NCBI RefSeq assembly: GCF_947492555.1
Contig: NZ_CANLNE010000002.1
Span: 921,501-985,500 of the forward strand
Length of the DNA: 64,000 bases
Source: an uncultured Roseobacter sp.
GTDB taxonomy: Bacteria > Pseudomonadota > Alphaproteobacteria > Rhodobacterales > Rhodobacteraceae
Reading direction: 5' to 3'
The notes beneath the pieces were generated by a model, which was not told the DNA's origin, did no database searches, and was given only the letters and a program-made list of their open reading frames with translations. Position numbers and translations under genes: made by a program. This document shows positions 12,289 to 12,806 of this stretch, piece after piece (position 1 is the first letter of the stretch; every line of letters starts with the position of its first letter).

Positions 12289-12389
12289 GACCGTAGTTTG
12301 CCACGAGGCGCCTGCGTTTCAACTGTTTTGATCCGTTCGATTGCTCGGAACCGTAAAAAGTTAAGAAATTCCGAAAAAGATACGACAAG

Positions 12390-12405
12390 TGTGAACCGGA
12401 TCACA
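12390..12405. promoter_or_regulatory. CRP-like palindrome TGTGA-N6-TCACA
   Basis: This is an exact match to the classical CRP consensus half-sites with six bases between (12390-12394 and 12401-12405). Its centre (12397.5) is about 41.5 bases upstream of the start predicted from the TAGATA -10 at 12428-12433, the class II activator position. It lies between the divergent phosphatase-like gene and the RNA candidate. Confidence 0.55.
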
Positions 12406-12427
12406 TACCTGGAGTAGAAAATACCGC

Positions 12428-12433
12428 TAGATA
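12428..12433 (+). promoter_or_regulatory. Candidate -10 box of the RNA unit
   Basis: TAGATA lies at 12428-12433. The -35 region at 17-base spacing (12405-12410, ATACCT) is poor, which fits an activator-dependent promoter served by the CRP-like site. The predicted start is near 12439. Confidence 0.35.
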
Positions 12434-12438
12434 GAGGT

Positions 12439-12723
12439 GTGAGCCGGGGTGATTTACCTCCTCGGAAGTGGAGTAACGATTGTGACCAGAGTACCTGATT
12501 TAGATGACGACCCCCGGGGCATTTCTCCGGATATCTCCCCGGTTCCGCGCACCTCTTCCTGGCGTGCAACGGGGCGCAGCCCAGTCAACCGTCGTCCCGG
12601 TCCGAAATGCCCCTCTACTTGGCGTTTCACCGACTGGGCTGCTCTCTAACCAAAGGAACGCAGCTTCTCCCCCTGCGCTTCCTCTTTCCCTGACGGGTCG
12701 GTGTTTCACCGGCCCGTTTTTTT
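12439..12723 (+). ncRNA. Candidate structured RNA with interleaved perfect stems
   Basis: I recognise no known RNA family here. Stem 1 pairs GGGGCATTTC (12516-12525) with GAAATGCCCC (12604-12613), 10 bp perfect. Stem 2 pairs GCAGCCCAGTC (12576-12586) with GACTGGGCTGC (12632-12642), 11 bp perfect. The order 1-2-1'-2' means either a pseudoknot or two mutually exclusive folds. A further hairpin (GGAACGCAG with CTGCGCTTCC, one bulge, 12655-12682) and an intrinsic terminator (12693-12723) follow. A 55-codon GTG frame (12482-12649) runs through it, so a leader peptide or small mRNA is an alternative. The unit has its own CRP-like site upstream. Confidence 0.45.
12693..12723 (+). terminator. Intrinsic terminator of the RNA unit
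   Basis: ACGGGTCGGTG (12693-12703) pairs with CACCGGCCCGT (12707-12717), 11 bp with one G-T pair, around a TTT loop and followed by Ts to 12723. No annotated gene on this strand ends before it, so it implies a transcript from the 12430-12690 region. Confidence 0.9.
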
Positions 12724-12806
12724 GTTCCCCCAAGATAATGTCGTCTGGTAAACGCCCCCCGGAGGTGCCAGACCTGCGGCAGAGTAGATAGGGGTAGGGC
12801 GCTGGT

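Follow-up and report, generated by a model that had tools for sequence, protein, structure and literature searches.

The locus described here lies in the window, the stretch of 64,000 nucleotides that was analysed (G000:C2:921501-985500, G000 being its genome), and comprises a predicted CRP-type operator, a 55-codon ORF, a hairpin and an intrinsic terminator (Table 1). At the DNA level, a search through 59 genomes recovered the locus in 12 of the 19 genomes of the genus Roseobacter, its own included, and in none of the other 40. The surroundings of these loci, examined over about 3.3 kb each, are variable: the divergent phosphatase gene was found at 8 of the 12, and DUF2938 was matched at 8 and not at the other 4. 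As the neighbours vary between loci, the operator, the ORF and the terminator would form one transcription unit. Its 285-nt stretch at 12440-12724 folds with z = -4.43 (0/200 shuffles as low).

Table 1. Features of the locus, in positions of the window.
Feature	Coordinates	Strand	Basis or remark
Operator TGTGA-N6-TCACA, predicted CRP-type activator site	12390..12405, with TCACATAC to 12408	.	Invariance and spacing
Predicted -10 element TAGATA	12428..12433	+	Consensus guess; hexamer weakly conserved, distance conserved
Shine-Dalgarno sequence GGAAGTGGAG	12464..12473	+	8 bases before the start codon; invariant in 12/12
55-codon ORF, GTG start, TAA stop, protein MTRVPDLDDDPRGISPDISPVPRTSSWRATGRSPVNRRPGPKCPSTWRFTDWAAL	12482..12649	+	Coding signature
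Stem 1, within the ORF	12516-12525 with 12604-12613	+	10 bp, perfect here; weakly conserved
Stem 2, within the ORF	12576-12586 with 12632-12642	+	11 bp, perfect
3'UTR hairpin	12654..12683; arms 12654-12663 and 12673-12683, loop CTTCTCCCC 12664-12672	+	Fold, covariation
Intrinsic terminator	12692..12723; stem 12692-12718, T run to 12723	+	Pattern and fold

The original prediction read TGTGAACCGGATCACA at 12390-12405 as an exact TGTGA-N6-TCACA, and so it is. In the strand-corrected alignment of the 12 Roseobacter loci (own included), TGTGA and TCACATAC show no variation, the stretch from 12390 to 12447 is free of gaps, and mean identity is 86% over 12389-12409 vs 42% over 12410-12427. Transcription is predicted, and only predicted, to start near 12439-12440, such that the centre of the site (12397.5) would lie about 42 bases upstream; TGTGA-N6-TCACA at this fixed distance near -41.5, a figure that hangs on the predicted start, points to a promoter of the class II type. 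At the locus the operator is exact in 18/19 Roseobacter genomes and has one mismatch in the remaining one, G017. Genome-wide, G000 has five exact sites vs 2.3 expected from base composition, an excess so small that an exact site alone proves nothing and conservation carries the case. The five are the operator itself, two just downstream of a CRP-type gene, one inside a flavin reductase gene and one before rplJ (the last two names given by eye), so that G000 has no second copy of the locus with an exact site; these are counts of exact sites, and degenerate ones would enlarge the regulon. The stricter TGTGA-N6-TCACATA was matched in 17/19 Roseobacter genomes and amounts, with palindromic doubles counted once, to 32 sites: 12 at the 12390 locus, 16 at a second putative RNA named Y, 1 at the RNA without ORF of G018, described below, and 3 others (G006:C10, G000 before rplJ and G010:C29). 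Hence 29 of the 32 lie at the locus in either of its forms or at RNA Y beside the CRP-type gene. The site before the gene read as rplJ (L099 ~1501; G000:C2:1015088) appears in the genus-wide list for G000 only and is perhaps due to chance.

In all 12 loci a GGAG stands 8 bases 5' of the start codon and the ORF has 55 codons, with no indels; the Shine-Dalgarno sequence can pair with CTCC at 12458-12461. Start codons (GTG in 8, ATG in 4) and stop codons (TAA in 5, TGA in 5, TAG in 2) are exchanged among the loci. Synonymous exceeds non-synonymous divergence (dS > dN) in 61 of 66 pairs; the two are equal in one pair, of identical sequences, and dN > dS is found in four (L001, L002 and L003, each with L004, and L006 with L009). 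Judged by this evolutionary signature, 12 of the 19 Roseobacter genomes carry a genuine coding sequence at 12482-12649. The conserved portion of the protein is its C-terminal half. In searches of Pfam and NCBIfam (two members run in each library), no family matched at E <= 10. The AlphaFold2 model is of low confidence (mean pLDDT 63.0, pTM 0.19); it predicts a mostly disordered protein whose one helix is short and spans residues 49-54.

A profile built on the C-terminal 20 residues matched the same number of Roseobacter genomes (12/19) and, in a set of 295 genomes of the family with one genome per genus, 30 at E <= 0.01; the exact DNA pattern for WRFTDWA occurs in 3/295. Of the 25 profile rows that were read (L075, L077, L081 and L083 were left out), 20 end in [WYFH]-[RKQT]-[FY]-[TRN]-D-[WF]-A-x-[ILF] directly at the stop codon; in L078 the motif lies just before the printed frame, L064 is doubtful, and L073, L076 and L082 are apparently false. 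With the row of the window's own genome the motif totals 22, and it appears to recur at the C-terminus in about 20 of the 295 family genomes. The 24 homologues outside the genus are of 25-49 aa, with start codons chosen by us, and 21 of them have a GGAG within 18 bases 5' of the start. TGTGA-N6-TCACA with at most one mismatch was found within 250 bases of 0/24, the best having two mismatches. Around 15 of the 24 a cspA-like or DUF2938-like gene lies within the 3-6 kb examined; csp genes are often multi-copy, so these shared neighbours hint at a single ancestral location without proving it. A search of plasmids returned a single weak match (Salipiger, E 3e-2). Before the homologous ORFs of L022, L023, L024, L061 and L063, from other genera, we noticed a shared 5' element (GGTNNGGAATNCC, GTCCGGAATNCCNGAC and variants) that by eye resembles one or two short hairpins. 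In L022 and L024, from two of these genera, a long inverted repeat lies 3' of the homologous ORF (CAGGGTGGGC...GCCCACCCTG); its loop is C-rich, and no T run is obvious.

After the stop codon, the hairpin and then the terminator fold in 11/11 distinct sequences, all with the loop core UCUCCCC (DNA TCTCCCC), and UUCUCCCC is kept in 9/11. The intrinsic terminator proposed for the end of the locus was recovered (stem 12692-12718) and itself folds in 11/11 distinct relatives; by pattern alone terminators are unsurprising here (2 in the region vs 2.3 expected). From these 11 distinct ORF-bearing 3' modules only, we built the covariance model R1, which was run over the 59 genomes and gave some match at E <= 0.1 in 39. 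The known loci fill its ranks 1-12, and the seven remaining Roseobacter genomes, and no others, fill ranks 13-19, with E-values, rough as such values are, from 8.6e-13 (G011) to 1.8e-7 (G018). Among the lower-ranking matches, which come from the family and from beyond it, are DUF1127 genes that have a C-rich hairpin at their stop codon; in nine other R1 loci examined, the 330 bases preceding the match contain no exact operator. As R1 also matches unrelated ends made of a C-rich loop and a terminator, the 3' module may be no more than the general context of a terminator. In L181, L182 and L183 (L179 and L180 look alike) the stop codon of a DUF1127-type gene lies in a hairpin with a C-rich loop, followed by a terminator; the Pfam match to DUF1127 is shown for L182 only, and L181-L183 resemble CcaF1-CcsR loci.

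The seven genomes of ranks 13-19 have the RNA without the ORF, in the same gene neighbourhood and with the same kind of site. An exact TGTGA-N6-TCACA precedes the R1 match by 103-115 bases in six of them, with one mismatch in the seventh, G017; neither the operator nor the neighbouring genes played any part in the R1 search. In the stretch examined, a cspA gene lies near the match in 6/7, and in G017 the window's neighbours h87 and CutA are present; in G001 and G009 the order is cspA, h84, RNA, DUF2938 and phosphatase. None of the seven loci has a frame resembling the 55-aa protein, nor did we see a frame common to all seven that closes before the terminator. In a tree of the CRP-type gene from 17 genomes (G010 and G011 missing), the six ORF-less genomes included form one group with support 0.993. 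These comparisons show, at the level of sequence, the ORF-less form as an orthologous RNA gene in a sister clade, where the promoter site and a comparable 3' module hold the corresponding position. The small transcription unit with a CRP-like class-II-type site and its own terminator, as originally proposed, is supported by these comparisons, site and 3' module being found in all 19 Roseobacter genomes.

We assessed the covariation of the 3' hairpin on 18 sequences, 11 with ORF and 7 without. Over the nine-pair stem, six pairs have two-sided changes vs 3.4 in shuffles (2/500 reach as many), the two-sided cells number 21 vs 8.3 +/- 2.7 (0/500), and 83% of the stem cells are paired vs 40-54% when the arms are slid. 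Further pair types gave no excess over shuffles (290/500), and after a slide of -1 the covariation score is still fairly high (0.280 vs 0.336 in register). By these counts the hairpin covaries over the 18 sequences, with the caveat that relatedness among sequences can produce an excess over such shuffles even where there is no structure. The loop differs by clade, UCUCCCC in the ORF-bearing genomes vs UCUUCC in the ORF-less ones.

The CRP-type gene (L100:4545-5219, minus strand; G000:C2 ~698.5 kb) encodes a protein with a cNMP-binding domain and a Crp-type HTH (HTH_Crp_2). It was recovered beside Y in 17/19 genomes, being absent from the pieces examined of G010 and G011, and the helix TREAVSK is found in 17/17 of the recovered proteins. 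Presumably a recognition helix of the TREAVSK type suits TGTGA, judging by E. coli CRP (RE..GR), with whose helix we take it not to be identical. Four matches to class III cyclases in the genome make cAMP a possible ligand of this regulator; the carbon part of the regulation first suggested follows from the regulator's family only. RNA Y (L100 ~4092-3862, minus strand; G000:C2 ~698091-697861) is preceded by one of the two exact sites beside the CRP-type gene, a site that is exact in 19/19 Roseobacter genomes, and ends in a terminator. Its last ~85 bases are conserved, with CUCUCCCCAGGGUCUGU changed at few places, and this 3' end, convergent with a cytochrome c1-like gene, carries CUCUCCCC and the terminator. 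Y gave nothing in Rfam at the gathering score. At the DNA level it was matched in 5 of 80 sampled family genomes, own included, the other four over ~35 bases of terminator only. Between the CRP-type gene and Y (L100 ~4400-4090, minus strand) we also noticed two short frames of 49 and 53 aa, which follow another TGTGA-N6-TCACA just after the stop codon of the CRP-type gene; the 49-aa frame has no Pfam match.

We propose, with a probability of roughly 60%, that the locus is a CRP-type-activated dual-function RNA gene working like VcdRP of V. cholerae. The proposal builds on what the alignments show, namely the conserved operator and spacing, the coding signature, the covarying 3' hairpin and the ORF-less orthologues; what we infer is transcription, which regulator acts and with what sign, base-pairing and protein function. 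An activator of the CRP family would bind TGTGA-N6-TCACA in the class II position and drive an RNA of ~285 nt; the likeliest candidate is the CRP-type protein with a cyclic-nucleotide-binding domain encoded at G000:C2 ~698.5 kb. The first two thirds of this RNA would be translated into the 55-aa protein, which is mostly disordered and probably contacts a partner through its conserved tail WRFTDWAAL. An sRNA module would make up the final ~75 nt, a hairpin presenting UCUCCCC and the terminator, and the loop could pair with purine-rich ribosome-binding sites or translation starts of other mRNAs. In the sister clade, which lacks the ORF, the corresponding place is taken by the promoter site and a counterpart of the 3' module.

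Other explanations have to be weighed against this one. The two perfect interleaving stems of 10 and 11 bp, from which a pseudoknot or a switch had been predicted, are indeed present: two or more Watson-Crick stems of at least 10 bp in 12440-12690 arose in 0/1000 dinucleotide shuffles, and at least one in 27/1000. As a pseudoknot, a two-state riboregulator or a leader peptide, the element would act in cis on the downstream gene, and it would suit this that stem 2 has 11/11 pairs in 12/12 loci, with one two-sided change, and that stem 1 keeps at least 8/10 pairs in 12/12, one of its pairs having a compensating change in 2/12. However, stem 1 is perfect in 3/12 only, with 8-9 of 10 pairs in 9/12 and that one pair mismatched in 7/12; conserved codons coincide with part of the stem 1 arms, and the covariation score of both stems counted together is reached by 19/500 shuffles, a slight excess. 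The terminator follows the ORF in 12/12 loci and DUF2938 was found near 8 of the 12 only; the 55-codon GTG frame is supported as a coding sequence and not as a leader peptide. Both stems lie within the ORF that seven genomes lack and are therefore not the conserved core. With stem 2 conserved inside the ORF, stem 1 so rarely perfect and seven genomes without both, no pseudoknot or switch is needed; we regard a cis-acting element as highly improbable, and a local role of the stems in translation or decay as possible.

We give just as little credence to a non-coding sRNA whose 55-codon frame is only apparent and conserved through RNA structure. It would accord with the strong structure of stem 2 and of the whole stretch, with the existence of ORF-less orthologues and with synonymous variation in only 11 of 22 amino-acid-invariant codons, but the 12/12 loci without indels, the swapped start and stop codons and the ribosome-binding site argue against it, and other genera encode the same peptide tail with other codons. 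An ordinary small-protein gene under a CRP-type regulator, with a hairpin and terminator that only end and protect the mRNA and a sister clade that lost the ORF and keeps a decaying or neutral transcript, is unlikely, yet deserves to be taken seriously. No other single signal is as strong as the coding signature, and the counterparts of the ORF in other genera are small-protein genes that lack the operator (0/24 with at most one mismatch); against this, the operator, the pyrimidine-loop hairpin and the terminator persist without the ORF in 7/19 genomes, and the covarying stem and fixed loop core exceed what a terminator needs.

Our preferred reading, the dual-function RNA gene, has a wider form, to which we give slightly less than even odds: one genus would hold the same CRP-controlled RNA gene with and without a coding segment, by gain or loss of coding, together with a CRP-type regulator that mainly serves two targets, this RNA and another sRNA encoded beside its own gene. 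If true, the Rhodobacteraceae have a small-protein family unlisted in Pfam and NCBIfam, marine roseobacters have two candidate CRP-controlled small RNAs, and the 12 coding and 7 apparently non-coding orthologues offer a natural comparison for the gain or loss of ORFs in dual-function RNAs. Should the regulator answer to cAMP, this second messenger would be tied to post-transcriptional control in common marine bacteria.

Among known families, Rfam 15 at the gathering threshold returned only a tRNA elsewhere in the window and nothing at the 12390 locus, where the best sub-threshold match had 18 bits vs a gathering score of 65; that the RNA could not be matched to a known family, as first stated, agrees with the searches at both gathering and permissive thresholds. 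The weak permissive matches to mmgR/suhB (RF00519) and SorY (RF02651), which share a pyrimidine-rich stretch before the terminator with the 3' end of the locus, reached 17.5 and 12.7 bits vs gathering scores of 41 and 111, and the locus is not a member of either. A literature search on the peptide motifs gave only two unrelated matches, and no title or abstract start among the matches listed for roseobacters with small RNA, small protein or CRP describes the locus; 'cold shock' and 'Crp' are absent from the main text of a paper on Ruegeria pomeroyi sRNAs, within the portion used here (PMC4809877).

The comparisons that follow draw on portions of the cited papers. CcaF1-CcsR1-4 and other 3'UTR-derived sRNAs of Rhodobacter sphaeroides, e.g., UdsC, share with the locus a small-protein gene followed by a 3'UTR sRNA and a terminator (PMC10253847, PMC8625941, PMC9779115). 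CcaF1-CcsR has a DUF1127 protein and an RpoHI/HII promoter, whereas our locus has a CRP-type site and one hairpin, and the 55-aa protein, having no Pfam match, is not the DUF1127 protein that marks loci of that type. Pos19, from the same bacterial family (R. sphaeroides), is a 219-nt small coding RNA with a 150-nt ORF translated in vivo and RNA-mediated regulation; likened to the locus by description and not by sequence, it is similar in plan, not by homology, and has an RpoE promoter where the locus has a CRP-type site (PMC5036791). In VcdRP, an RNA controlled by CRP, a short ORF lies upstream of a conserved C run and then a terminator; CRP represses it, citrate synthase is the binding partner of its 29-aa peptide, and its pairing with translation starts is through four cytosines (PMC8672173). 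The locus differs in its predicted activation, its 55-aa protein and a base-pairing that is putative. Its protein is presumably unrelated to the VcdRP peptide. In plan, and not by homology, the two are alike: CRP-type control (predicted for the locus), an ORF, a C-rich stretch and a terminator.
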